NCBI RefSeq assembly: GCF_000235425.2
Contig: NZ_KI912266.1
Span: 2,362,142 to 2,426,141 of the forward strand
Origin: Pseudofrankia saprophytica
Lineage (GTDB): Bacteria > Actinomycetota > Actinomycetes > Frankiales > Frankiaceae
Direction of reading: 5' to 3'
Length of the DNA stretch: 64,000 nt
Below the pieces are notes generated by a model, which was not told the origin of the DNA, ran no database searches, and saw only the letters and a list, made by a program, of their open reading frames with translations. Both the position numbers and the translations under genes were made by a program. Below are positions 29,738 through 60,824 of the stretch, piece by piece (the first letter of the stretch is position 1; each line of letters begins with the position of its first letter).

Positions 29738-30616
29738 ATGGCGCTTTTTCGTGGTCGTTCCGTTCCTTCGTGCCGTCCGGGTGGTGCCTCGCGCCTCCAG
29801 GTGCGTCTAGCCGGTTTGGTGGGTGCTGGGATCATTGCCGTCGCCCTGGTCACGGCCGGTCCGGCCGCCAACGCGGCCTCGGCGTCGACGACGCCGTCGT
29901 TCACCTCCGCCCTGGCCGCGAAGTGGCGTTCCTACCTCGCGACCAGGCCGGGTTCCGTCAGCGTCGCCCTTTATGACCGGAGTACCGGTCGGACCATCTA
30001 CGTGACCAAATCCGTCGGTAACGGATGGGAAACGGCGAGCACGGTAAAACTGGACATCCTTGCCCACCTGCTCTCGAGAACCGGGCAAAACGGAAATCTC
30101 ACGGCCGCGCAGCTGAAGCTGGCCAGGCCGATGATCTCGGTCAGCGACAACGCGGCGGCCAGTTCCCTGTGGAACCAGGCCGGCGGGCAGAGCGGGATGG
30201 ACGCCTTCTTCCGCGAGCTCGGGACGACCGCGACGGCAGCCGGCGCCGGCGGCAAGTGGGGCCTGACGAAGACGACGGCCCTGGACCAGCTCAAGGTCCT
30301 GCGCGCGGTCTCCTACCCGGGCGCCGTCCTGTCCAAGAACGCGCGAGCCACCGCCACCGGCCTGCTGAACACGGTCGTGCCAGCGCAGCGCTGGGGCCTG
30401 ACCGCCGGCGTGCCGACCGGCGTCTCCGTCCAGGTCAAGAACGGCTGGCTGCCCTACGACGGCGGCTGGGTGGTCAACAGCCTCGCCCACGTCCACGGGG
30501 CAAACAAGGACTACGTCATGGCCGTCTACACACGCAACAGCGCGACAGAGCAGACAGGAATCAACACCATTGCCGGCCTGTCGCGCCTCGCCTGGTCGAC
30601 CGTGCCGGCCGCCTGA
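29738..30616 (+). CDS. secreted serine hydrolase of the beta-lactamase-like (class A-type) fold
   Basis: A 292-residue exported protein. A signal peptide is clear (positively charged start, hydrophobic LVGAGIIAVALVTAGPAANA, Ala-x-Ala cleavage near residue 45). The penicilloyl-serine-transferase motifs are STVK (SxxK, about residues 99-102), SDN in MISVSDNAAAS, and KNG in VQVKNGWLPY in place of KTG. The class A Glu166-type omega-loop residue is not obvious, so a D,D-peptidase, esterase or cell-wall-binding role is as likely as beta-lactamase. The downstream gene is a paralog, about 60% similar in the core. No obvious operator other than the palindrome before it. Confidence 0.9.
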   Translation: MALFRGRSVPSCRPGGASRLQVRLAGLVGAGIIAVALVTAGPAANAASASTTPSFTSALAAKWRSYLATRPGSVSVALYDRSTGRTIYVTKSVGNGWETASTVKLDILAHLLSRTGQNGNLTAAQLKLARPMISVSDNAAASSLWNQAGGQSGMDAFFRELGTTATAAGAGGKWGLTKTTALDQLKVLRAVSYPGAVLSKNARATATGLLNTVVPAQRWGLTAGVPTGVSVQVKNGWLPYDGGWVVNSLAHVHGANKDYVMAVYTRNSATEQTGINTIAGLSRLAWSTVPAA

Positions 30617-30739
30617 CCCCGGCCGTCGGCTGTGCCCACGCCATCTGGGCACGGCCGATCGTCCAAGACCGGGAAGAGTTGAAGAATTTGTAACTATCCG
30701 GAACATTGCGCGTAGTCCAGGATATGTACAAATTCGGTC

Positions 30740-32053
30740 ATGGTTTCCGGCCGCTCGGCCCGCCGACCCCGCACGCGGCGGCGTTCTCGCGCGCGGCTGG
30801 CGAGCCTGACGGTCGCGGTGGGGGCTGTGGCGCTCGCGACCCTCGGTGGCCCGCCCTTCACGGCCGCCGCTACCGCCGCTACCGCCGCTACCGCCACCGC
30901 GACGGCGACGGCGACCGACGGTCGCGCCGTGTCGACGGCCGCGGCCGTCGTCGTCGATCGGGCGGTATCGGCGAGCCCGACCGACGTCGCCGGCGACTCC
31001 GCGCTCGTGGGAGTTCTCGGCATCGACTTCGTGGTCGCGGCGTCGGCTGGTACCAGTTCGGCTGGCCCGGGTTCGGCCGGCGTGACGCCGTCGGCTCCCA
31101 TCGCCGCCGCGACCGCTCCGACCGCCACCGCCGCGACCGCCACCGCCGCGACCGGAACCGCCCCGCCCGGAACCGCCCCGCCCGCGACGACACCCGCGTC
31201 GGCGCCGCCAGCGGCGACCTGGGAACCGGCGCCGGCCGGGCCGACGCCGACGCCGTCGGCGACCGCGAGCGGGCCACCCACCACGGCCGATCCGGACTCG
31301 TCGTTCGCGCCGGTCCTCGCGGCCGAGTTCCGCTCCTACCTGGCCACGCGTCCCGGCGCCGTCAGCGTCGCCCTGTACGACCGGACCAGCGGGCTGACCG
31401 TGGACGTCACGAACTCCACCCGGACCGGGTGGGAGACCGCCAGTACGGTCAAGCTCGACATTCTCACGGCGCTGCTCACCAAGACCGGTGAAAGCGGTCA
31501 GCTACCGGCCTCGCAGCTGCGGCTCGCCAAGCCGATGATCTCGGTCAGCGACAACGCGTCGGCGAGCGCCCTCTGGCGCCAGGCCGGTAGCCAGAGTGGG
31601 ATGAACGCCTTCTTCCGCGCGTTCGGAATGACCGCGACCACGGCCGGCGGGAGCGGGGCGTGGGGGCTCACCAAGACGACCGCCTATGACCAGCTCCGCG
31701 TCCTGCGAGCCGTCTCGTACCCGGGTTTGGGCCTGTCCGCCAATGCCATGGCAACCGCCACGAGCCTGCTGGGCACGGTGGTCGGGTCGCAGCGCTGGGG
31801 CCTGACCGCCGGCGTGCCGGCCGGTGTGTCAGTGGAAATCAAGAACGGCTGGCTGCCCTATGGCGGCGGCTGGGTGATCAACAGTCTCGCGCACGTGCAC
31901 GGGGCCGGCAAGGACTACATCATGGCCGCCTACACCCGCGACAGCCGAACCATGGGCATCGGCGTCGAGACCATCTCGGGCCTGTCCCGTCTCGCCTGGC
32001 AGTACGTCCCGGCAGCCCCGGTCCTGGACCCGAACGCGCCGCCGGAGCCCTGA
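30740..32053 (+). CDS. secreted serine hydrolase, paralog with long Ala/Thr/Pro linker
   Basis: A 437-residue paralog of the preceding gene product. After a signal/anchor-like N-terminus (LASLTVAVGAVALATLGG) comes about 150 residues of low-complexity Ala/Thr/Ser/Pro sequence, in part encoded by repeated gccgctacc units, resembling a wall-spanning linker. The catalytic part has STVK (near residue 233), SDN (MISVSDNASAS) and KNG (VEIKNGWLPY), spaced as in the first copy. The linker suggests it is attached to or spans the envelope while the first copy is freely secreted. Start ATG 30740, upstream element like that of gene one. Confidence 0.9.
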   Translation: MVSGRSARRPRTRRRSRARLASLTVAVGAVALATLGGPPFTAAATAATAATATATATATDGRAVSTAAAVVVDRAVSASPTDVAGDSALVGVLGIDFVVAASAGTSSAGPGSAGVTPSAPIAAATAPTATAATATAATGTAPPGTAPPATTPASAPPAATWEPAPAGPTPTPSATASGPPTTADPDSSFAPVLAAEFRSYLATRPGAVSVALYDRTSGLTVDVTNSTRTGWETASTVKLDILTALLTKTGESGQLPASQLRLAKPMISVSDNASASALWRQAGSQSGMNAFFRAFGMTATTAGGSGAWGLTKTTAYDQLRVLRAVSYPGLGLSANAMATATSLLGTVVGSQRWGLTAGVPAGVSVEIKNGWLPYGGGWVINSLAHVHGAGKDYIMAAYTRDSRTMGIGVETISGLSRLAWQYVPAAPVLDPNAPPEP

Positions 32054-33508: not shown

Positions 33509-33820
33509 TCGGGCTCCCCCTCAGCGACCCGCCCCGGGTCCGTGTCGGCCGGCCCGCGTGCGTGCGTGCTGAGAGTATCCAGACTGAACGGGAAATAAGG
33601 CCACAGTGCTGGGGTTGTTACCCGCATTTTTCCGTCGCGGTTCCGTCGGCGACACCAACGGTGGGCCGCCGCCGGAGCCCGTAGCCCGCCAGCATGAGCC
33701 GGCGGCCCCCTGCCGATGCCGACGGAGGCGGCACGGGCCCCCGGAGTGGGGCCGGTCAGCCAGGCCGGACCGGGTGAGGTGGCACCCGAGGCGCGGGCTG
33801 GCGCCGTCGCGGGCTCGAGA

Positions 33821-36493
33821 TCACTGCCAGTCCGGCAGGTACCACGACGCCGAGGCCAACTCGTCGCGCAGACTCTCGGCCAACGCCGCCACATGCGGTT
33901 CCCGCAACATGGTGTCGTGCGTGCCGGGCATTCGGTGAACGGTGGTGTGGCCCCGCAGCAGGCGTCGCCAGGCTGCTTCGTCCGCCTGGCTGTCCTGCTC
34001 GGCCATGTACAGCACAGTTCTGCCGTCGTAGGGACGGATACGGTAAAACGACGTCAGCAGCTCACTCTGCTTGAAGAAGCGTCGGTATGGGCTTGTGCCG
34101 GTCCGGATGTATCCCGTCAGCGCCAGTTCCGTCAACCAGCGCGGGGTCCCGCGGGTCGGACGGTACCCAGACGGCACGAGCCGCGGCCGCCGCGATTCTC
34201 GCCGGGATTCCTCCTCTGGCCGGGAAACCTCCCCGGATATCGGCTCCGCGTCGAACAGCGGCACCTTGCCGCCCGAGGCCAGGAAGGGAAGCCTGGTGTC
34301 AACGATGGCCAAAAGGGCAACCAGCTCGCCGGCGGCCGTCAGTCGTTTCGCGATGTCGTAGGCGACGAGGCCGCCGAAGGAGAATCCCACTAGGTGATAT
34401 GGCCCGCGGGGCTGGACACGGCGTAGGTCGGCCAAATGCCGACGGGCATGCTGTTGCACGCTCCAGTCGGCCCGCGCGCGTTCTTCCAGGCCCCTTGCCT
34501 GAAAGCCGACCACGGTGCGTACGCCATCCAGACGGCGAGCCAGACGGAGAAAGCTCAATGCCATGCCGCCGCCGCCGGCGAAGCAGAACAGCAGCGGCGC
34601 GGAGCCATTCCCGACCAGGCGGACACAGGTCGCGCCTGGCGTGGCCGTCGGTGAGCGGTTGATCTTTTCCGCGAGTGCCGCGACCGTCGGTGCCGCGGCC
34701 AGGACCGACGGGGGGAGGTCGACGCGGAGGTTCCTGTTGATCTCGAGGATCAGCTGCTGCGCCACCACCGAGTCGCCGCCGAGTTCACCGAACTCCTCGA
34801 AGACCCCGATGTCGTCCAGGCCCAGCACCTGCCGCCAGACCTCCAGGAGGAGCGCCTCCGGATCCGTCCGCGCACGGGTGCGGTCCGCGCCAGCCCGTTC
34901 TGGGATGTCGGGCAGCGCCCGCCGGTCGATCTTTCCCCGTTCGGTGCGGGGTAGCGCGTCGAGCAGCAGGATCCCCGTCGGGACCATCCAGGGCGGGAGC
35001 TTCTCGCGCAGATGGCGGCGGATGTCGGCGATGGTCGTGCTCGCCTCCGGAACGAGCTCGACATAGGCGCAGAGCCGGGGCTCGCCGGTCGAAGGCGACG
35101 GCCGGCCGGTGGCCACGGCGGCGCGGACATCCGGCAGAACCAGCAGGGTGGCCTCGACCTCGGCCGGTTCGACCAGATAGCCGCGAATCTTGACCGCGGC
35201 ATCGGCCCGCCCGGCGAGCCGCAGAAAACCGTCGTCGTCGACCTTGCCCAGATCCCCGGTTCGGTAGAACCGGCGGCCGTCCGGGGAGGCGCCGAAGCGC
35301 TCGGCGGTTCGCTCGGGGTCACCCAGATATCCAGAAGCGAGGTAGTCGGAGACGATGACGACCTCGCCGGTCTGACCTGGGCCGAGCACGGTGCCGTCTT
35401 CGTCCCAGATCTGCGCCTCGCGGTCCGGGACCGGCCTTCCCGCGGGCAGGGCGCCAGGAGGCATCGGCGACGTCCTGCCATACACGTTGAAGGCCAGGCA
35501 GCCGATCTCGGAAGCTCCCGTCCAGTTGGCGAAGACGGCCTCGTCGCTGAGGCGCGGCCAGAGCGCGGCGACGTCCCTCCCGTTGACCGGTTCGGTTGAC
35601 GTCGTCACCAGTCGCAGATGGTCGAGGACACGGCCAGGCGGCAGGTCGGCCAGCAGCCTGCTCAGCAGCGAAGGAGCCATGTGCAACGTCGTCGGCCGCC
35701 GCTCGGCGAGCCAGGTGAGCGTACCGGCGGTGCCCGCCGAGCGCGGGTCGAAAAGACAGAGGGTGGCCGCGCTGCACAGCGCCCACAGGACGACCTCGAA
35801 GCCGGCCGCGAACGAGTACGGCAGCAACAACGCGACCCGGTCCGCCGGTGTGAAACCCAGCGCGGCGCATCCGGACCACGCGTCGCACATCACCATGCGC
35901 TGGCCGCGGATGACGCCCTTCGGGGCACCGGTGGACCCGGAGGTGAAGAAGATGGCGACGGCGCGGTCGCCTACGGGCGGCGTCGGTCCGGCGTGCGGGC
36001 CGTCATGGGCCGGGAGCGCGGTGTTCTCGGCCGTGGCCAGGGCCTCCGCGAGGAGGGCGACCCGACCGTTCGTGCCGGCGGCCGCGCGCGCCGCGTCCGC
36101 GTGCCTGGCACTGGTGAACAGAAGCGGCGCCCCGCTGGCCGCGAGCATGCTGGCCAGCCGCGCGGCGGGCGCCGTCGGGTCGAACTGCGTGAACGGCCGG
36201 CCGGCCTTTATCGCCGCAAGAAGTACGACAATCCCGTCCACGTCCTGTCCGAACAGGGTCGCGATCGGTTCCGTACCGGTGCCGAGCTGGGCCGTGATGA
36301 CGTGGGCGAGGACGGTCGACCGGCGGTCCAGCTCGGCGTAGGTGATGCTGGAGTCCGCTGAGACGACGGCCACGCGTTCCGCCGCGGCCGCCGCGACCTC
36401 ACCCACCCGGATCGCCAGCGAGCTTTTCTCGTATGCCTTTCCAAAGGGCGGGACCGAGATTCCCCAGGACTCCGTCGAGGTGACCGCGGTCAT
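33821..36493 (-). CDS. A-T-TE NRPS-like synthetase (adenylation, carrier, thioesterase)
   Basis: About 890 residues, one complete tridomain. Adenylation domain: A3 FFTSGSTGAPKGV near residue 185, A7/A8 region YRTGDLGKVDDDGFLRLAGR and IRGYLVEPAEVE near 440, A10 lysine motif LPRTERGKIDRRAL near 520. Carrier domain: GELGGDSVVAQQL, attachment Ser near 570. Thioesterase: GFSFGGLVAYDIA with nucleophile Ser near 705, probable Asp in AIVDTRLP and His in PGTHDTML. No condensation domain. The A4 position that in amino-acid-activating domains holds Asp (FDxS) is FAAGFEVVLW, and A5 reads NWTGASE, so the substrate is probably not an alpha-amino acid. ATG 36493 was chosen after AGGAGG; an ATG at 36517 overlaps that site. 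Divergent from an O-methyltransferase gene. Confidence 0.92.
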   Translation of the reverse strand: MTAVTSTESWGISVPPFGKAYEKSSLAIRVGEVAAAAAERVAVVSADSSITYAELDRRSTVLAHVITAQLGTGTEPIATLFGQDVDGIVVLLAAIKAGRPFTQFDPTAPAARLASMLAASGAPLLFTSARHADAARAAAGTNGRVALLAEALATAENTALPAHDGPHAGPTPPVGDRAVAIFFTSGSTGAPKGVIRGQRMVMCDAWSGCAALGFTPADRVALLLPYSFAAGFEVVLWALCSAATLCLFDPRSAGTAGTLTWLAERRPTTLHMAPSLLSRLLADLPPGRVLDHLRLVTTSTEPVNGRDVAALWPRLSDEAVFANWTGASEIGCLAFNVYGRTSPMPPGALPAGRPVPDREAQIWDEDGTVLGPGQTGEVVIVSDYLASGYLGDPERTAERFGASPDGRRFYRTGDLGKVDDDGFLRLAGRADAAVKIRGYLVEPAEVEATLLVLPDVRAAVATGRPSPSTGEPRLCAYVELVPEASTTIADIRRHLREKLPPWMVPTGILLLDALPRTERGKIDRRALPDIPERAGADRTRARTDPEALLLEVWRQVLGLDDIGVFEEFGELGGDSVVAQQLILEINRNLRVDLPPSVLAAAPTVAALAEKINRSPTATPGATCVRLVGNGSAPLLFCFAGGGGMALSFLRLARRLDGVRTVVGFQARGLEERARADWSVQQHARRHLADLRRVQPRGPYHLVGFSFGGLVAYDIAKRLTAAGELVALLAIVDTRLPFLASGGKVPLFDAEPISGEVSRPEEESRRESRRPRLVPSGYRPTRGTPRWLTELALTGYIRTGTSPYRRFFKQSELLTSFYRIRPYDGRTVLYMAEQDSQADEAAWRRLLRGHTTVHRMPGTHDTMLREPHVAALAESLRDELASASWYLPDWQ

Positions 36494-36591
36494 CTGCGGG
36501 TGATCCCTCCTTGGCATTACGTCTCGCTGGTGAGAACTGCTCCAGCCCCGACCACCGCGAACACCACGGGCCGACCGGCGGGCGCTATGCG

Positions 36592-36609
36592 TCAACAACG
36601 CGATGTTGA
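36592..36609. promoter_or_regulatory. inverted repeat TCAACA-N6-TGTTGA in divergent promoter
   Basis: tcaaca (36592-36597) and tgttga (36604-36609) are perfectly complementary, 99 bp upstream of the NRPS start, in the 474-bp region between the synthetase and methyltransferase genes; operator-like. Confidence 0.5.
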
Positions 36610-36682
36610 TTCCTGTGTTGCGGCGTGATGCCGCGACAGATGGCCACGCCGGCGGCAAGCGTGGCCGGTCGTGGCGATACGT

Positions 36683-36697
36683 TAGCGCGTTGCGCTA
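36683..36697. promoter_or_regulatory. inverted repeat TAGCGC-GTT-GCGCTA
   Basis: A perfect 6+3+6 palindrome in the middle of the same divergent region, compact and symmetric as expected of a dimeric repressor site. No regulator gene lies next to it. Confidence 0.55.
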
Positions 36698-36967
36698 GCG
36701 GAGCATAGCAGGCGGAGTTGACGCGCTGCCTGGATCTCTCCGCTCCGCGGCGAGGCGTTAGTCGTGTCAGTCGCCTCGTAACTAGTCGGCGGGTACTGGT
36801 CGGTGTCGGCGGTAAAAAGGATGTTGCGTGGGTCCCGCGGGCGGGAACATCCGCCGCGGGGCTCAAGGACGTCCTTCGCGCTCGGAGCATCCAACGCTCC
36901 CGGCCGGTCGGCGGCGGTGGCACGCGTGCTAGCGTCCGTCCTAGGTCAGGACGCGGTTGGGGGACAC

Positions 36968-37714
36968 ATGGCCGACGAGAATGCTCGCGGGGTTCTGGGG
37001 GAACTTCCGCGCCGTGCTATTCGGCGGCTGCGAGGGAACGATTCCCCTGAGGCCAAGACCCACTTCGTATGGAAAAGGGTCGTGCGCTATGCGCGCGGCC
37101 ACACGACCCGACGTGACCCGGTCCTCGCGGATCTGGCCGCCGCGACGCGCGAGCTCGACGGGCCGAAATGGCTTCCCATGATGGAGGTCCCCCACGAGCA
37201 GGGAGTCCTGCTGACGATCCTGGTGGCGGCCGCGGCGCCCGCGCAGGCCATCGAGATCGGTACCTTCACCGGTTACTCGGCGCTCTGTATCGCCCGGGGG
37301 CTGCCGCCCGGTGGGCGGCTGCTGTGTCTTGATGTCGAAGACAGCTATACCGCGGTCGCGCAGCGGCACTGGAAGGCGGCCGGCGTCGATGACCGGATCG
37401 AGCTGCGCATCGGGCGGGCCGTGGACAGCTTGGCCGAGCTCCCCGAGCAGCCGACCTTCGGGCTCGCGTTCGTCGATGCCGACAAGGAGTCCTACATAAC
37501 CTATTGGGAGCAGCTCCTGCCGCGGATGCTTCCCGGCGGGTTGATCCTGATGGACAACGTGCTGTGGCATGGGCGGGTGGCCTATCCGTTCCTTCTCGGG
37601 AAGAAGGAGCGGAAGCTGCGCCGGTTCAACGACCACGTCGCGGCGGACCCCCGCGTCGAGCACGTGATGCTGACGGTGGGCGACGGCATGACGGTGGCGC
37701 GGGTCCTGTCGTGA
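36968..37714 (+). CDS. class I SAM-dependent O-methyltransferase (CCoAOMT-like, family 3)
   Basis: About 248 residues. The SAM-binding motif I is AIEIGTFTGYSALCIARGL, acidic motif II CLDVEDSYT, and AFVDADKESYITYWEQLLPRM followed by LILMDNVLWHGRV is the metal and substrate region typical of the catechol/caffeoyl-CoA OMT family, which methylates aromatic hydroxyls in a divalent-metal-dependent way. ATG 36968 has GGGGG 4-8 nt upstream. It is divergent from the A-T-TE synthetase gene and the two share about 470 bp of palindrome-bearing promoter DNA, so it likely methylates the synthetase product (inference). It is convergent with glpX. Confidence 0.93.
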   Translation: MADENARGVLGELPRRAIRRLRGNDSPEAKTHFVWKRVVRYARGHTTRRDPVLADLAAATRELDGPKWLPMMEVPHEQGVLLTILVAAAAPAQAIEIGTFTGYSALCIARGLPPGGRLLCLDVEDSYTAVAQRHWKAAGVDDRIELRIGRAVDSLAELPEQPTFGLAFVDADKESYITYWEQLLPRMLPGGLILMDNVLWHGRVAYPFLLGKKERKLRRFNDHVAADPRVEHVMLTVGDGMTVARVLS

Positions 37715-37795
37715 TCTTCTCCGGGACGGGTACCGCGTTCACCTGACCGCGCGGAGGCCGCGCTCCGGAGTGGCACCTGGCCGCCCGCCGGCCGC

Positions 37796-37825
37796 GCGGG
37801 CGGGCGCGGGCGGGCGCGGGCGGCG
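37796..37825. repeat. 10-bp GC tandem repeat
   Basis: gcgggcgggc twice plus gcgggcggcg, between the convergent methyltransferase and glpX genes; with the preceding ccgcccgccggcc it can also fold and may terminate both transcripts. Confidence 0.75.
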
Positions 37826-37923
37826 GGCACCGACCGGCCGCGTCACCGGGTCGCCGCCATGATCGCGGCGTGGACCCCGTGGGGCGGGCGCTCTGATCCG
37901 GGACCGAGTACGGCCGGAGATCG

Positions 37924-42917: not shown

Positions 42918-44486
42918 CTAGAACGGCACGCCGCCCCGCCAGATCGATACGGGCCCGACAGTCATGGTCTGGGGAAAGGCCGTCGACGCGGGGTTACCGG
43001 CGCCGATGGCGATGTTCAGCACGAGGTACTGCGGCTTGCTGAACGGCCAGTCCCATCCCGAGGCCCGCGCGTCGTCGGCCCAGATCCGCATGTGTTCGCG
43101 CCGGTCGACGTAGAACCGCACGGTCTGGCCATCGAAATAGACCCCGTAGGTGTGGGGACGGGCACGTAGGTTCTTCCCCAGGTCGACGGAGCCGCCGGCG
43201 TCGCCCCAGCCGAACTCGGCTTCGGTCCGCGGGTCGGCCGCCATGGACATATGGGCCGCGCTGTGCACCCAGGTCGTGTCCTCGCCGACGACCTCCATCA
43301 CGTTCAACTCGCCGGACCGCGGCCAGCCGACCTGTCGAATGTCGCCCCCTACGAGCCAGAACGCCGACCAGACGCCCGCCCCCACGGGCACGTCGATCGA
43401 TGCCTCGACGTACGAGCCCGGCTGCACGGCGACCTTGCCCTCGGTGCTGAGCCGGGCGCTTGTGTAGTGACGCGGGATGCCGTCCGGGCCGGTGGCGTCC
43501 TCGCGGTACGCGGTGATCCGGAGATGGCCGGCGCCATCGACCTGGGCGTTGGCGGCGCTCGCGGTGTACGTCTGCAACTCGTTGTTGCCCCAGCCGTTGC
43601 CGCCGATCTCGTGGTTCCACTCGGCCGGGTTCGGCGACCTGCCCGCCGGGCCGGCAAAGGACACCACTCTGGTCGGCGGGCCGTTCACCCGCGCAGGCCC
43701 GGGCGCGGCCACCCGCCGGACGCTCGCGGCGGCAAGCTGGAAGTGGAAGGACCCGGTCGCGGGCAGGTCCACGTACAGGGATGTGCCGGAACCGCCGGGC
43801 GCCGTGCAGACAAACGTCCGGGACAGCAGGTGCCAGGAGCGGTCCGCGAAGCCGCCGTACTGGCTGACCTCCGTCGGCCGCTGCTGGTAGTGCCCGTCAC
43901 CGAGCAGCATCCCGACCTTGCCACTCGCGGCGTCGGCGTCGCGAACCCACAGCTGCATCCGGTAGGTGCGACCGATCTGGAAGTACTCTTCGGGCGTCCG
44001 GAGCGAGATCAGCGCCCACGCCCACGTCCCGTTCCCGCCGCGACGGCTGACGTCCACCGCGGTCGTCCCACCGGCGGGTCCGCTGATCCCGGTGACGCGC
44101 CTGAGCTGGACGGGGCCGGAGTCGGACTCGGCGCGCCAGCCCGACAGGTCGGTGCTCGCGGACTCGTTGAGGACGGCGTTCTCGGCGAGCACCGAGGTGG
44201 CGGGCGTCGGACCCGGGCCCGACGTGTCGGGGGCGCCCGCCTCCTGGCCATTCGCGGCCGCCACCGCCGAGGCACCCCCCGACGGCGCGGCTTCGCTGGC
44301 CGGAGAGACGCGGGTGCTCCTGGGGGCGCGGGTGACCTGCACCAGGACGACGGCCGTGGCCGTCAAGACGACGGCGATGGTGAGCGCGACGACTCTGCGC
44401 CGCTGACCGCGTCGGCGCCGGGCGACGTGCCTCGGTGAGGCAGGCGCCCCCACGCTCGCGGACTCGGGCGGAAGGCCGCCAACCAT
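42918..44486 (-). CDS. GH16-like (laminarinase/licheninase fold) exported protein with altered catalytic motif
   Basis: About 522 residues. N-terminal basic cytoplasmic part, a membrane helix (VVALTIAVVLTATAVVLV), a Ser/Ala/Pro linker, a carbohydrate-binding-like beta-sandwich (residues about 105-255), and a C-terminal GH16 domain with WNHEIGGNGWGNNELQTYT, TSARLSTEGK and WDWPFSKPQYLVLNIAIGA. The active-site motif normally ExDxxE reads GELNVMEVVG: both glutamates are present but the middle Asp is Asn (codon AAC near 43297). The enzyme may be slower, have altered pH optimum, or bind rather than cut. ATG 44486 has GGGAGG just upstream. It is followed, in the same direction, by nothing; the large membrane protein gene lies upstream, so both may be one unit. 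Confidence 0.88.
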   Translation of the reverse strand: MVGGLPPESASVGAPASPRHVARRRRGQRRRVVALTIAVVLTATAVVLVQVTRAPRSTRVSPASEAAPSGGASAVAAANGQEAGAPDTSGPGPTPATSVLAENAVLNESASTDLSGWRAESDSGPVQLRRVTGISGPAGGTTAVDVSRRGGNGTWAWALISLRTPEEYFQIGRTYRMQLWVRDADAASGKVGMLLGDGHYQQRPTEVSQYGGFADRSWHLLSRTFVCTAPGGSGTSLYVDLPATGSFHFQLAAASVRRVAAPGPARVNGPPTRVVSFAGPAGRSPNPAEWNHEIGGNGWGNNELQTYTASAANAQVDGAGHLRITAYREDATGPDGIPRHYTSARLSTEGKVAVQPGSYVEASIDVPVGAGVWSAFWLVGGDIRQVGWPRSGELNVMEVVGEDTTWVHSAAHMSMAADPRTEAEFGWGDAGGSVDLGKNLRARPHTYGVYFDGQTVRFYVDRREHMRIWADDARASGWDWPFSKPQYLVLNIAIGAGNPASTAFPQTMTVGPVSIWRGGVPF

Positions 44487-44605
44487 GGATCCTCCCGCCA
44501 TTGGCCTGGTACGCCGGAAATAGTAGATCTATCTGGCGGGGGCTATGTAGGTGGTCCCGGTTCGCCCGTGGTGTCGCGGTCAGGATCGGGATCGGTCCAG
44601 CGCGG

Positions 44606-46837
44606 TCATCCCGCCCGCGCCGCAAAGCGGTCCGGTTCGAACCGGAACAGCACCGTCCCGTCATCCTCGCGGGTGACAGACCAGTACGGGGAGGCGCGGA
44701 AGGCTTCGCGAAGGGCGGCGAAGCGGTCCGGCAGGTCGGTCCCGTAGGCCCAGCCATAGTCCGACGACACCGGCGACCACACGGCGTACAGCTCGTAGGG
44801 CCCCGGCGACTGGTTCTGGACATACGTGACGAACCGGGCGGTGAGGCTTGCCATCTTCGCCGAGCCAGTGAGATTTTCGTCCTCGGGGTCGGCCGGCGTC
44901 GGCAGGTCCTGGACTCGCAGGCCGGTCGGACTGCCCGAACTGCGGGCCGGGGAAACCGGCAGGTCGCCTGGCCCCAGGCTGAACATGAAGAACTTCTCCT
45001 CGGGGTGGGCCTCCCCGTACGCCTGGAAGTACCGGACCGTTCTCAGGTCCCCGCCACGAATGACGTTCACCGCGTCCAGCCCGAACGCGGCCACCAGGAA
45101 CGTCGCGGTCAGCAGCGCGGACACGCCGAACCACGGCAACCGCCGGAGGCCGGCGCGGGATCGAGGGAAGACGCTGGCCCCGAGCAGCGCGAGCCAGGGT
45201 ATGGCGAACAGCATCGCCCGGAAGATGCCTTCGTTGCCGTACGGGTTCACGGCGACGAGGACCAGGCCGACCGCCGGGCAGCATGCCTGCGCCCACGCGG
45301 CCAGGTCGCGCCGTCTGCGGACCAGCGTGACGAGGGCCGCCACGCCGAGTAGCAGAACCCCACCGCAGAGCGCCCGCACCGTCTCGCCGACGATGGGCAG
45401 CCGGGCGAGTCCCGTCATGTTCGTCGTCGAGGGCGGCTTGAAGTTCTGCGACTGCCCGATCTCGCCCAGGTTGATGAAGCCGCTGACCGCGTTCCAGTGA
45501 ACGAGTGCCCACAGCACCGCCGGTCCCAGGAACAACGCCGGGATCCAGAACGGGCGCGCCTGGCGGAACACGACCAGCACGACCAGGACGCCACCGACCA
45601 CGTAGGGGCTCAGCTGGTGGGTGACCGCCAGCAGGCAGCCGGCGGCGAGCAGGAGGCCGGCGCGCGTCCTGGAATGGCGCTTGGTGAGCGCGAGCCCGAA
45701 CACGGCGAGCCCCACGACGAAGCCGACGGACTGGGGCGAGAAGTAGTCCGCGCCGATCGGGTCCGCGAGCACGGCCAGCGTGACCGCGACCCAGCAGTGG
45801 TAGGAATTGTCGAGCACCTTCCCGGCGAGATAGCGCAGGGCGGCCACTCGGAACACGCCCAGCAGGGACGGCCAGAACGTGGCGAGCCCGAGCGGGTCGC
45901 GGATCCCGGTGACGTCGCAGAGCCAGGCCATCGCCGCGAAGAAGCCGGACCAGTAGTTGTAGACGTCGACGCTTGAGTCGAGCCGGTGGATCGAGCGGAT
46001 CTGCTGTACCAGGTCGATGTGCTTCTCGGCCGACTGCGAGCGGGGCCCGTCGTAGACGAGCGAGGGCGTGAGCGTCAACACCACCGTCAGCAGCAGCACG
46101 GCGATGGCCAGGTCGCGTTCGTTCTCTCCGGAATGAAGGACGATCGCTATCAGAATGAGGGCCAGGCCCACGAACCACAGCGGCCCGATCAGCGGAACAA
46201 AGCCGTAGAAACCGGGGTCCAGATGGCGATGGGTGAACGCGGAGACCACGCACAGCAGAGCTCCCGCCGTCGCGCAGAGCACCGGCCAGGACTGGCCTGT
46301 CGATCGGCCGCCCGGCCACTGCCGGCGTAGCCAGCCGCCGATGCCCTGTGGCCCCAGGTCGCGCATGGCCAGCCGGATGCCGGCCGCGTGCGCCGGAACG
46401 CTCGCGGCCGCGACGATGACGAAGGCGGCTATCGGGTGCCAGGCATGGGTCTCGACCATGGCGACGGACACGAATACCAGCACGCAGAACCCGGTGACCA
46501 TCGTGAGGGTCATCCGCGTCGCCAGCCGGACGAACCGGTTGAACGCCCACGGCGCGGACCCGGGACCCAGCAGGCAGAATGCCAGCAGCGCCCCGAGCCG
46601 TGGGCCGTCGGCGCCAAGCGCCGCGGCGACGCTCCCCACCGCCAGCAAGGCCAGACTTCCGGCCGACAACGCCAGCCGGGCCGCGGCGGTGCCGGCCAGG
46701 ACGGCGTCATCCGCGAGCCCGGCGGGCGCTGGAGGCGCGCCCCGGCGCCCGCCTCGCCGGATGGTGATAGTCGCTGGTTCCGTGTAGCGGCTTCGCGTGG
46801 GCGGCGGCGCGTCGCCGTCGCCCACGCGAAGCCGCAT
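44606..46837 (-). CDS. large polytopic membrane protein, possible GT-C-type glycan enzyme
   Basis: About 743 residues with 12-14 predicted transmembrane helices (such as LALLAVGSVAAALGA and VGLALILIAIVLH) and a soluble C-terminal part of about 120 residues. Stretches like DVYNYWSGFFAAMAWL and ADYFSPQSVGFVVGLAVFG resemble predicted sugar-transfer membrane proteins of actinobacteria, but no catalytic motif is certain. I placed the start at ATG 46837, with GGAG 7 nt upstream; an earlier ATG at 47086 would add 83 disordered residues. The first 15 codons contain a perfect 15-bp inverted repeat. It precedes the GH16-like gene by 119 bp. Called as likely glycan-related by context only. Confidence 0.8.
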   Translation of the reverse strand: MRLRVGDGDAPPPTRSRYTEPATITIRRGGRRGAPPAPAGLADDAVLAGTAAARLALSAGSLALLAVGSVAAALGADGPRLGALLAFCLLGPGSAPWAFNRFVRLATRMTLTMVTGFCVLVFVSVAMVETHAWHPIAAFVIVAAASVPAHAAGIRLAMRDLGPQGIGGWLRRQWPGGRSTGQSWPVLCATAGALLCVVSAFTHRHLDPGFYGFVPLIGPLWFVGLALILIAIVLHSGENERDLAIAVLLLTVVLTLTPSLVYDGPRSQSAEKHIDLVQQIRSIHRLDSSVDVYNYWSGFFAAMAWLCDVTGIRDPLGLATFWPSLLGVFRVAALRYLAGKVLDNSYHCWVAVTLAVLADPIGADYFSPQSVGFVVGLAVFGLALTKRHSRTRAGLLLAAGCLLAVTHQLSPYVVGGVLVVLVVFRQARPFWIPALFLGPAVLWALVHWNAVSGFINLGEIGQSQNFKPPSTTNMTGLARLPIVGETVRALCGGVLLLGVAALVTLVRRRRDLAAWAQACCPAVGLVLVAVNPYGNEGIFRAMLFAIPWLALLGASVFPRSRAGLRRLPWFGVSALLTATFLVAAFGLDAVNVIRGGDLRTVRYFQAYGEAHPEEKFFMFSLGPGDLPVSPARSSGSPTGLRVQDLPTPADPEDENLTGSAKMASLTARFVTYVQNQSPGPYELYAVWSPVSSDYGWAYGTDLPDRFAALREAFRASPYWSVTREDDGTVLFRFEPDRFAARAG
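46788..46834. repeat. perfect 15-bp inverted repeat directly after a start codon
   Basis: cggcttcgcgtgggc (46788-46802) and gcccacgcgaagccg (46820-46834) are perfect complements with a 17-nt loop. On the minus strand the stem begins at the base after the ATG of the polytopic membrane protein gene, so it would fold at the translation start. Confidence 0.85.
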
Positions 46838-47638
46838 CGTCGGCTCCGCGTCAGTCGATGCGGCCCGCGGCGCCGGATCCTGTGCTTCCTTGGACCCCGC
46901 CCACCGCGGCCGCTCGGTCTGCCCTGCGCCGGTCGCCGACGCGGCGTCGTGGCGAAGACCGCCTCGAGCGCGCCACGGCGGAGGCGGAATCCGAGCTGGG
47001 CCGGCGTCTCCCGCCGTCACCGGCGGCCGACCGCGCCGACGGCCGCTGGAAAGGCATGTTCGACCACGCGCACCAGCGGTCCCCACGGCACGACCAACAT
47101 TGTCCCCCCGATTGGCTCATGCTTGCGCGCCCGTTTCTGCCACGACCGTTTCGTTTGGGCGGCCACATAACGACGGTGCGTGACCGTCGCCACTCGTCCG
47201 AATCGGGATCCGGTGCTCGCGCTTGTCCCGCTCGCTATGTGTTCCATATCACGGCTACCGGCCAGATGGCGGCGGGGTCAGCGTAGCAGGGGCACTCTCG
47301 CGCTGGTCCCGTGACTAACCCGCCGAGGAAGGTGATCGGTCGCTCTTCTCGCCAGGCATCACCCGTCCGCACCGACTTTGACGCGTCGATGAATCCGGAT
47401 TGAGGCGTTGGCGCCGGGGGGTGGGCCGGGACACCGGGCCCGCTGGCCGGCGAGCGCTACCACAGCGCGGGGCTGGATGGCGTGAGACTCGTTAGCCTGC
47501 GGAAGGGCGGGACGCCGGCCGGGGGCGTGGCGCGGCCGCCACCACAAAGGCGGCGGCACCACCCGCACATGACCGAAGATAGCCGGGGCAGTGTCGAGGA
47601 CGACGACGGCCGGTTCAGGACGAGGGGTATCGAGCAGC
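46838..47638. other. 801-bp region without a supported gene
   Basis: Divergent upstream region of the membrane protein gene and fumC. Several open frames exist on both strands but all have Arg/Ser/Pro-rich composition of shadow frames and none has a recognisable domain. It presumably carries the two promoters; a TAGCCT -10-like box lies near 47493. Confidence 0.5.
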
Positions 47639-49899: not shown

Positions 49900-51831
49900 A
49901 TGAGTTCTGGCGCCTCGGACGAGACAGTCTGGCTCCGGTCGCTGCCAAGGTCCGAGCCGCTGATTCTCGGAGCGGCCGACGCGACCATGTGGCTGCGCTG
50001 GCAGCCGCCGACCCGGCCGGCCGCGACCGCGACCGCGCCCGCGGACGGGCCGCGGGCCGGTCGAGCCGGAGCGGAGCCCGACTCGTCCGTGCTGCTCGAG
50101 CCGCTGCGGGAGGTGGGCGCCGGCGCGGGCCCGCGGGGAGTACCGGAGCCGCGGCCCGCCGCGGAGGCATCGAGTTCGTCCGACGACGCCGTCGCGCGCG
50201 AGGTCTCGGGGATGTTCGGGCGCGACTCCCTCTACATGCTGCTGTGGGCCGTCCAGATCGTCGGCGCTGCCGGGGTGACTCCCTTCGTGACCCGGCTGAT
50301 GGGAGCGGACGAGTTCGGCGCGGTGGCCGCGGCCAATGCCGTCATGCAGGTGCTGTTCCAGGTGGCCGGGCTTGGCCTGCAGACGGCGATCCAGTGGAAG
50401 TACGCGGATTCGGCGGCTGGCAGCTCGGACGGCCCGGCCGAGGCCCGCAGGCTGCTCACCTTGTGCATCCTTGCGGCGACGGCGATCACCTGGCTCGTCG
50501 ACACGACCGGCCGGTGGTGGGCCCCGTCGCTGGGATTCGAGCACTACGGCGGGGCGCTGCGGCTGGCGGTCTTCTGGGCGGGCATCGCGGCCGTGACCAA
50601 CGCCCAGCTGGCGCTGCTGCGCAGCCAGGACCGGCTCCTGGGCTTCGGGCTGGTGAGCATGCTGCAGTCGGTCGTCGCCGAGATGGCGAGCCTCGCGCTC
50701 GTCGCCGTGACGACGCCGACCGCGACGAGCTTCATTCGCGGTCAGCTTGTCTCGCAGATCGCCGCCACCGCGCTCGCCGTGTTCCTCGTGGTGCCGGGAC
50801 GGCTGGGACCGCGGGACCGGCGCCTCGTGGGGGCGAGCCTGGCCTATGCGCTGCCGCTGGTGCCGGCGGTGCTCGCCACGCTCGTGCTGAACGCGGGCAA
50901 CCGCTTCATCGTCCAGAGCCATCTGGGCCCCGCCGCCGTGGCTCGCTACCAGATCGCCTACAACATCGGGTCGCTGCCGACGCTGCTGCTGTCGGTGCTC
51001 AACTCGGCGTGGATGCCCCGCATCTTCGCGGTCTCCGACCCGGCCACTCGGGCGGCGGTGCTCGCGGCGAGCCGGGACGCCCTCTACCGGCTGCTGTCGC
51101 CCGTGCTCGTCGGGCTCGCGCTCGCGGCGCCCCTGCTGCTGCGCACCTGGGCGCCCGCGGGTTACGGCCCTGGGCAGTTGCTCGCCATCACCTCGATCGT
51201 GATCGTCTGCGCGGTGCCGGCGACCGCCAGCCTCGCGCCCACGCGGGCGCTCATGGCGGCGGGCGCGACCGTCAGCATCGCCGTCGGGACCGCCATCGCC
51301 GCCGCCGGCAACATCGCCCTCAGCCTCGTGCTGGTGCCGAGGCTCGGCCTGTCAGGCGGTGCGCTGGCGACCGGTGCCTCCTACTGCCTGTTGCATGGCT
51401 TCCTGCTGGCAAGGGCGCGGGTGGCCGCGCCCACTGCCCGCACGAGCCCGCTGATCCTCGTGGAGCTGGGCCTCGTCGTCGCGGCGGTGCTGGGGCTGAG
51501 TCTTGTCCCGGCCGACGGCCCGGTGGCATTCGCGGGTCGGGCGGTCGCGATGCTCGCCGCGCTCGCCTGGTTCGGCGTCATCTTCCGAATGATCGCCCGT
51601 GGAAAGGGCGCCGCTCGCCCGGCGGGCCGCCGCCGGGCGAGCGGCCCGCGTCGGCACGAGGCGCTCGAGGCGGCCCCGAGGGCACGCCACCGCGCCGACA
51701 GCCACTCGCGGCCGGTCCCGACGGCCGGACCGGCCGGGCTGCGTGCCGACCTACCCGAGCAACCCAGCCGGCGCTACGAGGAGGCGCCGACCATGCAGCT
51801 GTCGTGGCGTTCGCTTGGAGGATGGAGATGA
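49900..51831 (+). CDS. Wzx-type polysaccharide flippase / lipopolysaccharide biosynthesis membrane protein
   Basis: A 643-residue protein of the MOP/MATE-like oligosaccharide flippase type, moving lipid-linked glycans across the membrane. About 110 disordered N-terminal residues precede the membrane domain of 12-14 helices, which starts GRDSLYMLLWAVQIVGAAGVT and includes the family-like MGADEFGAVAAANAVMQVLFQ and AGNRFIVQSHLGPAAVARYQIAY. A basic C-terminal tail of about 80 residues follows. ATG 49900 was used; AAGGA about 10 nt upstream is moderate. The stop overlaps the next gene by 4 nt (ATGA), so flippase and transferase are coupled. Confidence 0.9.
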   Translation: MSSGASDETVWLRSLPRSEPLILGAADATMWLRWQPPTRPAATATAPADGPRAGRAGAEPDSSVLLEPLREVGAGAGPRGVPEPRPAAEASSSSDDAVAREVSGMFGRDSLYMLLWAVQIVGAAGVTPFVTRLMGADEFGAVAAANAVMQVLFQVAGLGLQTAIQWKYADSAAGSSDGPAEARRLLTLCILAATAITWLVDTTGRWWAPSLGFEHYGGALRLAVFWAGIAAVTNAQLALLRSQDRLLGFGLVSMLQSVVAEMASLALVAVTTPTATSFIRGQLVSQIAATALAVFLVVPGRLGPRDRRLVGASLAYALPLVPAVLATLVLNAGNRFIVQSHLGPAAVARYQIAYNIGSLPTLLLSVLNSAWMPRIFAVSDPATRAAVLAASRDALYRLLSPVLVGLALAAPLLLRTWAPAGYGPGQLLAITSIVIVCAVPATASLAPTRALMAAGATVSIAVGTAIAAAGNIALSLVLVPRLGLSGGALATGASYCLLHGFLLARARVAAPTARTSPLILVELGLVVAAVLGLSLVPADGPVAFAGRAVAMLAALAWFGVIFRMIARGKGAARPAGRRRASGPRRHEALEAAPRARHRADSHSRPVPTAGPAGLRADLPEQPSRRYEEAPTMQLSWRSLGGWR

Positions 51832-52892: not shown

Positions 52893-53921
52893 TCATCGTC
52901 TCGGTGGCACGCCCCCGGGCCTGGGTGCCCTGGCATTCGGGGTGCTCAGGCCACCGGTGCGCAACGCGACCAGGCCGCGGGCGTATCCGGCTCCGGTGAC
53001 CGCGACCCCCGCGAGCACCGCGGCCGCTTGTGGCCACCTGGCCCGCTCCCGAAGGCCCCGCGCGACGGCGCGGGGGAGGGTTCGCCGGACGTAGGCGCGT
53101 TCCGCCTCGAGCGCGGCGGTCGCGCCGACCAGGTTCGTCACGACGGCCTTCGAGATTCCTTCGGCGTAGCACCGCCGCTGGAAGTAGGCCCACTGGGCAC
53201 GCGTCCCGGGAACCTTGTGGTAGACCACCGCATCCGGCACGTGCAGCACGGACGCTCCCGGCAGGGCCCGGCGCAGACGGATGTAGAACTCGGTCTCCTC
53301 GCAGCCGAGCGGTGTGTTGCCGACGCGCCCAATTCCGTCGGTGAACCCCCCGACCAGCGGAAAGAACTTGCGGCGGAACGACATCGCGGCACCTATGGGG
53401 TTGCGGATCTCGCTCACCGTCGTGGGCAAGCCCACGTAGCTGCATCCGACGACCCAGTCGAACTCCGGGGGAAACCAGCCGGGGCGCGTCGTCAGCCAGT
53501 CCGCCGCGACGGTCCCGCCGACACCGACCACATTGGGATCCACGTAGGGCGCCGTCAGTTTGGCGAGCCAGTCCGCGGCGGCGCGCGCGTCGTCGTCGAG
53601 AAACGCGACGATCTCGCCGGTCGCCCGCTCGACACCCGTGTTTCGGGCGCCAGAAAGTCCTCGCGAGTTCTCGTTGGCGACGACGATGACGTCCGGGAAC
53701 GCTGCCCGGGCACGTCCCAGCAGCGCATTGTTGTAGTCGACGACGAGGATGATCTCGCTGGCCGGCGGATCCTGTGCCCTGATGCTGTCCAGCGCGGCGG
53801 TGATGTCGCCGAACCGGTCCTCGGTGTAGGCGCAGATGATGACGGACACAGCCGGCTGGTCAGGCTGACCGGTCGACGGCGTCGCGCGTCCGTCACTCGC
53901 GATGGCGTCGCCCGTGGTCAT
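52893..53921 (-). CDS. glycosyltransferase family 2
   Basis: A 342-residue GT-A enzyme. The nucleotide-sugar binding fold starts AVSVIICAYTEDRFGDITAA, the metal-binding DDD motif is in IVAFLDDDARAAADW, and NPIGAAMSFRRKFF followed by GCEETEFYIRLRRA contains the catalytic ED-type acidic pair. The C-terminal 60 residues include a hydrophobic patch (AAAVLAGVAVTGAGYARGLVAL), possibly membrane-associating. Start ATG 53921 overlaps the stop of the upstream GT2 by 4 nt, so the two are coupled. Probably elongates a surface glycan. Confidence 0.92.
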   Translation of the reverse strand: MTTGDAIASDGRATPSTGQPDQPAVSVIICAYTEDRFGDITAALDSIRAQDPPASEIILVVDYNNALLGRARAAFPDVIVVANENSRGLSGARNTGVERATGEIVAFLDDDARAAADWLAKLTAPYVDPNVVGVGGTVAADWLTTRPGWFPPEFDWVVGCSYVGLPTTVSEIRNPIGAAMSFRRKFFPLVGGFTDGIGRVGNTPLGCEETEFYIRLRRALPGASVLHVPDAVVYHKVPGTRAQWAYFQRRCYAEGISKAVVTNLVGATAALEAERAYVRRTLPRAVARGLRERARWPQAAAVLAGVAVTGAGYARGLVALRTGGLSTPNARAPRPGGVPPRR

Positions 53922-54829
53922 GCCGGCTCCACCCGCGGGACGCCCGAGGTGAGGGTTGTGTCCTCCCGCGGGCGTGTGATCGGCGCGGCTGGCGCGCGCG
54001 CCGTTGTGGCGGCGCCGAGCTGGGCGGGGTCCGTCGTCGCGTGCCGCGACAGGTCGAGGCGACGGCGCACCGCCTGCCTGTCGAGGGCGACCTGGCGGCG
54101 TAGCCGGCTCGGCATGGGCCGGAATGCCTCGGCGAAGATCGTCCTCAGCACACGCAGCCCGTCCGAGAGCGCGTTGAGGTTGGTCACGCCCATGAGCCGC
54201 GGGTGCTCGAAGCTGGCGACCTCGACAATCTTCAGGCCGCCGCGGGCTGCCCGGATGTTGATGAGGGTCTCCACCTCGAAGCCGTCACCCCACTGGGGTT
54301 CGTCGCCTCGTTGCCCCGGCTGCAGGTCGAGCACCGGCAGGCAGTAGGCCCAGAACGCGTTGTAGCCATAGCAGAGGTCGGTGAACCGATGCCGCAGCAG
54401 GATGTTGACCAGGGAGCTCAGGGCGAGGTTGCCGCGGCTGCGTAGCTTGGTGATATCGCTGCTCCCACCGCCCTCGATGAACCGGGAGCCCTTGGCGTAG
54501 TCGGCGCCGCCGAGCAGCGCCTGAACGAAGTCCTCGATCTCCGCGGGGTCGGCGGAGCCGTCGGCGTCCAGCATGACGATGATGTCGCCCGTCGCGGCCG
54601 CGAACCCGCTGGCCAGGGCGTTGCCCTTGCCCTTGCGCGTCTGGTGCACGACGACGCAGTCGGGCCGCATGGACTGGGCGACATCCTCCGTGCCGTCGGT
54701 CGATCGGCCGTCGACCAGGACGACCTCCGCGTCGGCGGGCAGAATCTTGAAGATATGTGGAAGGTTGCGGGCCTCATTCAGTGTCGGAATGACGATGCTG
54801 ACTCTTGGCCGCGGTTCCCCTACAGTCAA
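53918..54829 (-). CDS. glycosyltransferase family 2 (dolichyl-phosphate-mannose-synthase-like)
   Basis: A 303-residue GT-A enzyme of the DPM1/undecaprenyl-phosphate-sugar type: VSIVIPTLNEARNLPHIF, VVLVDGRSTDGTEDVA, a DAD metal motif in IIVMLDADGSADPAEIEDF and GSRFIEGGGSSDITKLRS, the classic acceptor loop. It probably transfers a sugar onto a polyprenyl phosphate at the membrane, the first step for the flippase pathway, but has no membrane helices of its own. The TTG start at 54829 has GGGGGA 6-9 nt upstream. Coupled to the next GT2 gene by a 4-nt overlap. Confidence 0.92.
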   Translation of the reverse strand: MTVGEPRPRVSIVIPTLNEARNLPHIFKILPADAEVVLVDGRSTDGTEDVAQSMRPDCVVVHQTRKGKGNALASGFAAATGDIIVMLDADGSADPAEIEDFVQALLGGADYAKGSRFIEGGGSSDITKLRSRGNLALSSLVNILLRHRFTDLCYGYNAFWAYCLPVLDLQPGQRGDEPQWGDGFEVETLINIRAARGGLKIVEVASFEHPRLMGVTNLNALSDGLRVLRTIFAEAFRPMPSRLRRQVALDRQAVRRRLDLSRHATTDPAQLGAATTARAPAAPITRPREDTTLTSGVPRVEPA

Positions 54830-59155: not shown

Positions 59156-59439
59156 CTGCGGTGCGCGCGTTGATGGCCTGAGCCCGGCGGCGGTGGGAGA
59201 GCCGTGGCGCTTGGCATTGCTCATGGAAATCAGCGGCGGCCGGACGCGGCCGCGGCGCGCAATGTGGTAACGCTGCAACGTGGTCGTTCTACTCGCGGTG
59301 CCCAGATGGCCTACGTCGGCGTTAGGCGGAAGGACCGGATGAGGGGGCCCGACGGGCCATACACCGCACCAGCGAATCCGTGCCTCCGCTCGGCGAGATA
59401 CGGGCCCGTCCCCGCCTACCGCTTACGATCGCTACTAGT

Positions 59440-60793: not shown

Positions 60794-60824
60794 CCTGACC
60801 GGCGCCGTGTCAGCGCCGGTCAGG
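60794..60824. terminator. bidirectional terminator overlapping a stop codon
   Basis: Perfect 12-bp arms cctgaccggcgc (60794-60805) and gcgccggtcagg (60813-60824), loop 7 nt. The right arm contains the stop codon of the GT2-FkbM gene. Confidence 0.8.

Follow-up and report, generated by a model that had tools for sequence, protein, structure and literature searches.

Within a 64,000-nucleotide stretch of the Pseudofrankia saprophytica genome (contig NZ_KI912266.1), referred to here as the window, two divergent genes encode an O-methyltransferase and a synthetase with adenylation (A), carrier (T) and thioesterase (TE) domains, termed A-T-TE (Table 1). As judged from its sequence, the A-T-TE is a real and intact member of a coherent enzyme family. 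Because some of its relatives adjoin genes for aminohydroxybenzoic acid or for surface sugar polymers, we propose that its product may be a sugar chain carrying an aromatic acid and not a dimer.

A Pfam scan of the 890-aa synthetase placed AMP-binding at aa 33-390, AMP-binding_C at 445-521, PP-binding at 548-609 and Thioesterase from 635, and found no condensation domain. The A4 motif reads LLPYSFAAGFEVVLW, with Ala where E. coli EntF, the alignment anchor, has Asp. The A10 Lys (ERGKID), the carrier Ser (LGGDSV) and the TE residues Ser705, Asp732 and His859 are all kept. A tridomain enzyme of this kind, lacking the A4 Asp and divergent from the O-methyltransferase over 474 bp, had been proposed in the preliminary description and is borne out by Pfam, by the alignment to EntF and by the gene coordinates. 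Against TIGR01733 (A domain of the nonribosomal peptide synthetase, NRPS, type), the A domain scores 261.7 bits, under the cut-off of 317.4. A whole-protein structure model from 5 input sequences was poor (mean pLDDT 64, pTM 0.46) and served for the fold match only; its best match was the EntF terminal module (5ja1), over A, T and TE.

Table 1 Features of the window and of the fusion loci. TM, transmembrane segments; GH16, glycoside hydrolase family 16; CBM, carbohydrate-binding module; GT2, glycosyltransferase family 2
Feature	Position	Strand	Remarks
A-T-TE synthetase	33821..36493	-	890 aa; ATG 36493, stop 33821; AGGAGGG ribosome-binding site upstream
Adenylation domain	34931..36397	-	aa 33-521; pocket AAEHTSWC; A10 Lys present; without A4 Asp
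Carrier (PP-binding)	34667..34852	-	aa 548-609; LGGDSV with Ser575
Thioesterase domain	33893..34591	-	aa 635-867; Ser705/Asp732/His859
Shared divergent intergenic region	36494..36967		474 bp; perfect palindromes of 12 bp (36865-36876) and 10 bp (36920-36929)
O-methyltransferase	36968..37714	+	ATG 36968; 248 aa; PF01596 (Methyltransf_3), 180.3 bits, cut-off 22
Pair-only segment	33674..37922		only A-T-TE and methyltransferase; missing where this site corresponds in the two nearest relatives; inversion breakpoint
GH16 with CBM	42918..44501	-	homologous to GH16 near the A-T-TE in L113, L228, L231 and L236; putative member of the polysaccharide genes
11-TM polymerase-like protein	44606..47086	-	TM by hydropathy count; without Pfam match; homologues in A-T-TE loci; putative member
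Flippase-like Polysacc_synt protein	49900..51831	+	putative member, by neighbourhood
Two GT2 glycosyltransferase genes	52893..54670	-	match genes near several far A-T-TEs at 44-49% and 63-65% identity; putative members
GT2 glycosyltransferase	59380-60738	+	homologous to genes in A-T-TE loci; putative member
GT2 glycosyltransferase joined to FkbM methyltransferase	60820-63060	-	one protein; homologues in A-T-TE loci; putative member
Flippase-like domain + A-T-TE fusion	L113:8603-12373		Mycolicibacterium sp. CR10; polysaccharide locus; 11-13 TM by hydropathy count
Flippase-like domain + A-T-TE fusions	L228:6850-10743; L229:8855-12736; L231:8448-12455		polysaccharide loci

At E 1e-120, the window A-T-TE matches 22 of 58 genomes (its own included) from three genera of one family, a threshold that passes over two genomes of genus g2 (G014, G017) which carry the gene. 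A profile search across the class (393 genomes, two candidates scored per genome) gave matches of at least 549 bits in 14 genomes outside the host's family. The stand-alone A-T-TE of G250 scores 460 bits, inside the NRPS range, and bit score alone therefore cannot split the families. The far loci number 23, seven named from a scan of the collection and 16 from the class-wide search; some end at contig ends, and they include long-branch members (L115, L117, L239, L240, L241) and the NRPS-type module L242. The latter was rejected as a family member: it has a Ser-type code and falls with NRPS modules in the tree. The collection scan gave at least 80 loci, and the 73 besides the seven named served as controls. 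Thirty records of plasmid-borne relatives were also discarded; the 20 matches listed are 29-36% identical, and the two inspected map to the ends of large NRPS genes, not to stand-alone A-T-TEs.

A quick tree, which has several long branches, sets the A-T-TE family apart from NRPS terminal modules and groups the window enzyme with a paralogue of its own genome (L067/L002, 98% SH-aLRT). The A4 Asp is missing from all 33 aligned members (the window enzyme and 32 homologues from its own bacterial family) and from the seven named far relatives; it is kept in all four NRPS terminal modules aligned alongside. The earlier claim of a non-amino-acid substrate is thus supported. The window enzyme fits the family features (A4 Asp absent, A10 of the [ED]RGK[VI]D type, LGGDS carrier), from which several other members depart at A10 or at the carrier motif. 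The host genome (9.98 Mb in two contigs, with the window on the 8.19-Mb contig) encodes five full-length A-T-TEs, the other four being 39-47% identical to the window enzyme.

The pocket residues, anchored on E. coli EntF and EntE, are at positions 235, 236, 239, 278, 299, 301, 322 and 330 in GrsA domain numbering. The window pocket shares six of its eight residues with the g2 enzymes, five with clade Ia, four with L233, three with the sister paralogue and two with an EchA-like code, and none with EntE, clade II or clade III. Position 239 is acidic (Glu), as in the GriH/GriI-linked L233.

In genus g2, the A-T-TE lies beside 3-amino-5-hydroxybenzoate (AHBA) genes in all six genomes searched (L077-L080, L190, L191). 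The set also has genes for dehydroquinate (DHQ) synthase, shikimate dehydrogenase, dehydroquinase II and a Gfo/Idh/MocA protein. It is whole in L078-L080; shikimate dehydrogenase was not called in L190 and L191, and L077 ends at a contig end. The L078 aminotransferase matches the AHBA synthase 1b9h with 651 bits, and the L079 HAD protein matches an AHBA-associated model with 323.6 bits (cut-off 246.65). Most g2 loci also hold an MsbA-like ABC exporter, a glycosyltransferase, an epimerase and a methyltransferase, and no polyketide synthase was noticed within the g2 stretches. As a separate observation, two other g2 stretches carry a second AHBA-synthase-like gene (L195:5656-6843 and L196:5688-6914, 78% identical) and a large protein weakly resembling the A-T-TE. 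In genus g6, the AHBA cassette occurs without an adjacent A-T-TE in three genomes (L192-L194).

GriI and GriH make 3-amino-4-hydroxybenzoate (3,4-AHBA) in the grixazone and bagremycin pathways (PMC10179220, PMC6692506). A PF01959 (GriH-like) gene is the immediate upstream neighbour of the A-T-TE in L114, L228, L229 and L233, which represent three lineages, and in L114, L229 and L233 a DeoC-type (GriI-like) aldolase gene accompanies both on the same strand. In L228, the GriH-like gene stands alone, with no GriI-like gene in the available stretch. The best solved relative of the L229 aldolase is MJ0400; a PDB search with the GriH-like protein gave no match. PF01959 occurs in 20 of the 393 class genomes and is so rare that chance does not account for the 3 far genomes, of 14, in which it adjoins the A-T-TE. 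One genome (G016) has two PF01959 genes (L243, L244), neither of them near its A-T-TEs. Going by these neighbours of its relatives, an aryl acid is somewhat more probable than not as the substrate of the window enzyme.

The acceptor is suggested by a different set of neighbours. In L113, L228, L229 and L231, the A-T-TE sits behind a domain of 11-13 TM in a crude hydropathy count; likeness to L113 suggests that the other three loci are mycobacterial. The fused domain may be flippase-like, to which a weak Polysacc_synt match (L113, the only one scanned; E 0.0006, below the cut-off), the hydropathy count and a homologous, free-standing 9-TM protein faintly point. This separate homologue lies beside the A-T-TE of L114 (Gordonia polyisoprenivorans). 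A PDB search with the fused membrane domain gave no match. The fusion proteins of L228 and L229 come right after the GriH-like gene, and the fusion loci and L114 hold homologues of some of the window GT2, GH16 and 11-TM proteins.

When the polysaccharide proteins of the window were used as queries, they matched the flanks of 8 of the 23 far loci (340 kb in total, the loci not being independent of each other) and of none of the 73 controls, which come from many taxa, belong with few exceptions to larger NRPS genes and had a shorter flank per locus (median 9.6 kb, 761 kb in total). Collapsed by hand to 14 lineages, the far loci comprise four with polysaccharide genes and three with GriH genes. 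The polysaccharide link of L112 consists only of glycosyltransferase matches of 29-31%. A weak Wzz-like (GNVR) gene and a PF02397 sugar transferase gene flank the sister paralogue (L067), the transferase gene directly; a weak Wzc-like AAA gene and a weak flippase-like gene follow further along, and the locus also has a FAD monooxygenase gene. These neighbourhoods make a glycan acceptor conceivable, with a chance slightly under one half. At L112 of Gordonia amarae, we also noted a mycolyltransferase-like esterase gene (L112:8924-9952; Cmt1, 235 bits) ending 3 bp before the A-T-TE; its homologues occur in L227 and L242 too.

Under the proposed mechanism, the A domain would adenylate an aromatic acid of the (amino)hydroxybenzoate type, and the carrier would hold it as a thioester. 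The TE would then pass the aryl group to a glycan or other acceptor, most likely to a sugar in the not yet flipped, lipid-linked repeat unit of an exopolysaccharide. A single polypeptide, the A-T-TE, would thus serve as a complete system for acylating the polymer, and the neighbouring methyltransferase would O-methylate the aryl ring. Aryl-acylation of a glycan is the best-supported reading, held tentatively and at a little less than an even chance. More doubtful is the broader proposal that actinobacterial A-T-TEs include dedicated systems for exopolysaccharide aryl-acylation, in some mycobacteria with the flippase in the same protein, which would load an aminohydroxybenzoate or related aryl acid and, by way of the TE, give redox- or metal-active sugar polymers decorated with aryl groups.

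Several observations weigh against glycan acylation. No AHBA or GriH gene lies beside the window A-T-TE. Aminohydroxybenzoate and polysaccharide neighbours are each a trait of a minority of family members: a GriH or GriI gene within 9 kb is absent from 19 of the 23 far loci, and 15 of the 23 have no match to the window polysaccharide proteins within 9 kb. Neither AHBA nor polysaccharide neighbours were seen for the clade Ia relatives, of which the host genome itself has one. The pockets of GriH-linked enzymes match that of the window poorly (L233 four of eight, L228 and L229 two, L114 one), and the sister paralogue shares three. PF01959 lies away from the A-T-TE in one of the 14 far genomes (G061), and 16 further genomes carry PF01959 without a family A-T-TE beside the gene. 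Genome searches found no AHBA synthase, PF01959, chorismatase or chorismate lyase in the host. The last two were thereby ruled out as acid sources, and in the host, which shows no AHBA pathway, the acid would therefore be another aryl acid or be supplied from elsewhere. Congeners having no A-T-TE at the window site carry polysaccharide genes in that same place. A methyltransferase of the window type is found beside none of the 45 other A-T-TE loci.

The family is not uniform either. Clade Ia loci have conserved, unrelated neighbours (Exo_endo_phos, HSP20, DUF4230, SpoIIE-HAMP), a gene for an FMN-dependent 2-hydroxyacid dehydrogenase adjoins the A-T-TE in all four clade II loci (L069, L081, L082, L083), and a luciferase-like monooxygenase gene is near it in 4/4 loci of clade III. 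Given these differing neighbours, substrate or acceptor probably varies within the family; the clade II pocket, ISNVMVST, probably indicates a different substrate.

The main rival to glycan acylation is release of a free aryl product: an aryl acid would be activated and freed by the TE as an ester, amide or oligomer, then methylated and exported, with the polysaccharide neighbours being incidental. The composition of most g2 loci, with exporter, methyltransferase, glycosyltransferase and epimerase, is that of a small-molecule cluster, and L233 combines GriH/GriI genes with a monooxygenase and a methyltransferase and has no match to the polysaccharide queries. The best fold match also agrees with release, as the EntF TE makes a trimer. 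Free release hardly explains why four loci have flippase-like fusions and why the sister paralogue adjoins a sugar transferase gene, and we regard it as rather unlikely. An ordinary or decayed amino-acid-activating module would account for the NRPS-type A domain with its TIGR01733 score and for the match to EntF, but the A4 Asp is absent from the window enzyme and its family and kept in the four NRPS terminal modules, and the catalytic residues are intact; this explanation is very improbable. A mycosporine-type A-T-TE (MysE) was set aside, as there is no cyclase gene in the segment of the pair.

The preliminary description had favoured an arylpyruvate- or aryl-acid-derived product. The aryl-acid half agrees with the AHBA genes beside some relatives, whereas dimerisation of arylpyruvate to a quinone or furanone by an EchA/RalA/AtrA-type synthetase, followed by O-methylation, appears improbable. 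The domain order and the missing A4 Asp are shared with such synthetases, the residues Glu 239 and Ala 236 with an EchA-like enzyme whose published code is VAEFVGAAGK (PMC9381841), and the 2-hydroxyacid dehydrogenase beside the clade II genes could supply 2-keto acids. However, the window pocket agrees with that code, compared in its printed form only, at two of eight positions and with the AHBA-linked g2 relatives at six of eight. Moreover, pocket position 1 is Ala and not Val, the residue which a paper on basidiomycete quinone synthetases gives as the mark of alpha-keto acids (PMC10316625).

By sequence, the solved structure closest to the methyltransferase is 5lhm (174.5 bits), and catechol and caffeoyl-CoA enzymes rank lower. 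It is divergent, being 43-61% identical to its aligned relatives, eight of which are 61-80% identical among themselves. The sole other strong match in the host genome is a second copy, 60% identical, on the other contig. A functional link with the A-T-TE is plausible, yet partnership of the two is a weak inference that we consider doubtful. That the two are unrelated neighbours brought together by rearrangement is, in our estimate, an even call. The pair lies at an inversion breakpoint, 31 of the 58 genomes searched (own included) have members of the methyltransferase family, its relatives have settings other than an A-T-TE in all six loci looked at, and no other A-T-TE locus examined has this methyltransferase. 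On the other hand, both genes are jointly missing from the matching site of relatives, and non-homologous methyltransferases occur near the A-T-TE in L233, L078 and L079. The outcome that the preliminary description named as refuting it, relatives having the synthetase but not the methyltransferase, was seen in all 45 other A-T-TE loci, in a test that is weak because none of the relatives found exceeds 47% identity to the window A-T-TE. As to the gap between the genes, the two perfect palindromes noted earlier are present but at chance level: 20% of base-composition shuffles of the 474 bp contain one of at least 12 bp, so they are not notable, and their role as a regulatory signal was rejected.

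At the chromosomal site, neither gene of the pair occurs in any of the 14 sthA/glpX stretches examined (L087-L100; L092 and L093 end at contig ends). In the two nearest relatives, whose sthA is 97-98% identical, the glpX-DUF4245-xseA-ispH-fumC block has the opposite orientation with respect to sthA, and the junction lacks the pair. Compared with them, the window has three extra segments. The first, 33674-37922, holds nothing but the pair; the second, at about 42.7-47.6 kb, has the genes for GH16 and the 11-TM protein; and the third, at about 49.0-55.8 kb, has the flippase-like gene and two GT2 genes. The region 33674-55815 as a whole thus shows the inverted glpX-fumC block with genes gained or lost at both ends and inside; a search for repeats joining the inversion breakpoints found none convincing. 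In other congeners, GH16 adjoins sthA and a GT2 gene adjoins glpX, with the pair missing, and the polysaccharide genes therefore probably predate the pair here. Two tandem Beta-lactamase2-type genes of unequal length, at 29738-32053, form a pair in the two nearest relatives too.

The polysaccharide genes of the window start 5 kb from the pair, with housekeeping genes between. The window flippase-like protein did not match the corresponding domains encoded at far A-T-TE loci. Absence of a transporter, from which a simple product had been deduced, is correct for the two genes themselves; a flippase-like gene and several glycosyltransferase genes lie at 49.9-63 kb. The deduction does not follow, because several relatives have a polysaccharide setting.

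If glycan acylation is true, NRPS-like enzymes would also decorate surface glycans, beyond making free small molecules, and aminohydroxybenzoates, known antibiotic starters, would also serve to decorate polymers. Such a role might be part of the reason why the host has five A-T-TE paralogues. Among the titles and abstract openings listed, we found no description of this A-T-TE family and, with subscription papers mostly outside the search, none tying such A-T-TEs or aminohydroxybenzoates to polysaccharides. In the passages covered of a paper on an Actinoplanes polysaccharide (PMC13390465), the words "nonribosomal", "adenylation" and "AMP-dependent" do not occur.

Among known systems, the EchA, RalA and AtrA synthetases resemble the window enzyme in the A-T-TE layout and the absence of a condensation domain and of the A4 Asp. 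The window enzyme differs by its pocket, with two of eight residues of the EchA-like code and Ala first, and by relatives near aminohydroxybenzoate or polysaccharide genes. The EntF terminal module (5ja1), closest in fold over A, T and TE in the poor model, differs in having a condensation domain and the A4 Asp, both of which the window enzyme lacks. The GriI/GriH pathways for grixazone, bagremycin and ahbamycins share the genes upstream of the A-T-TEs of L114, L229 and L233, with GriH-like alone in L228. For these clusters, PMC10179220 and PMC6692506 propose activation of 3,4-AHBA by free-standing ligases, not by an A-T-TE. The host genome of the window is, unlike them, without the pathway.

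Ansamycin loading modules (RifA type) load AHBA, and AHBA cassettes correspond to RifG-M. The likeness to them lies in the AHBA genes beside the clade Ib A-T-TEs and in a pocket that would suit an aryl acid; in contrast, the clade Ib stretches have no noticed polyketide synthase, and the acid would go to a TE. In Dlt-type acylation (DltA, DltC and partners), an adenylating enzyme and a carrier feed acyl transfer to a surface polymer. The proposed function is alike in that an adenylating domain and a carrier would do the same. The A-T-TE differs in being one polypeptide that includes a TE, in its putative non-amino-acid substrate and in the flippase-like domain fused to it in places.

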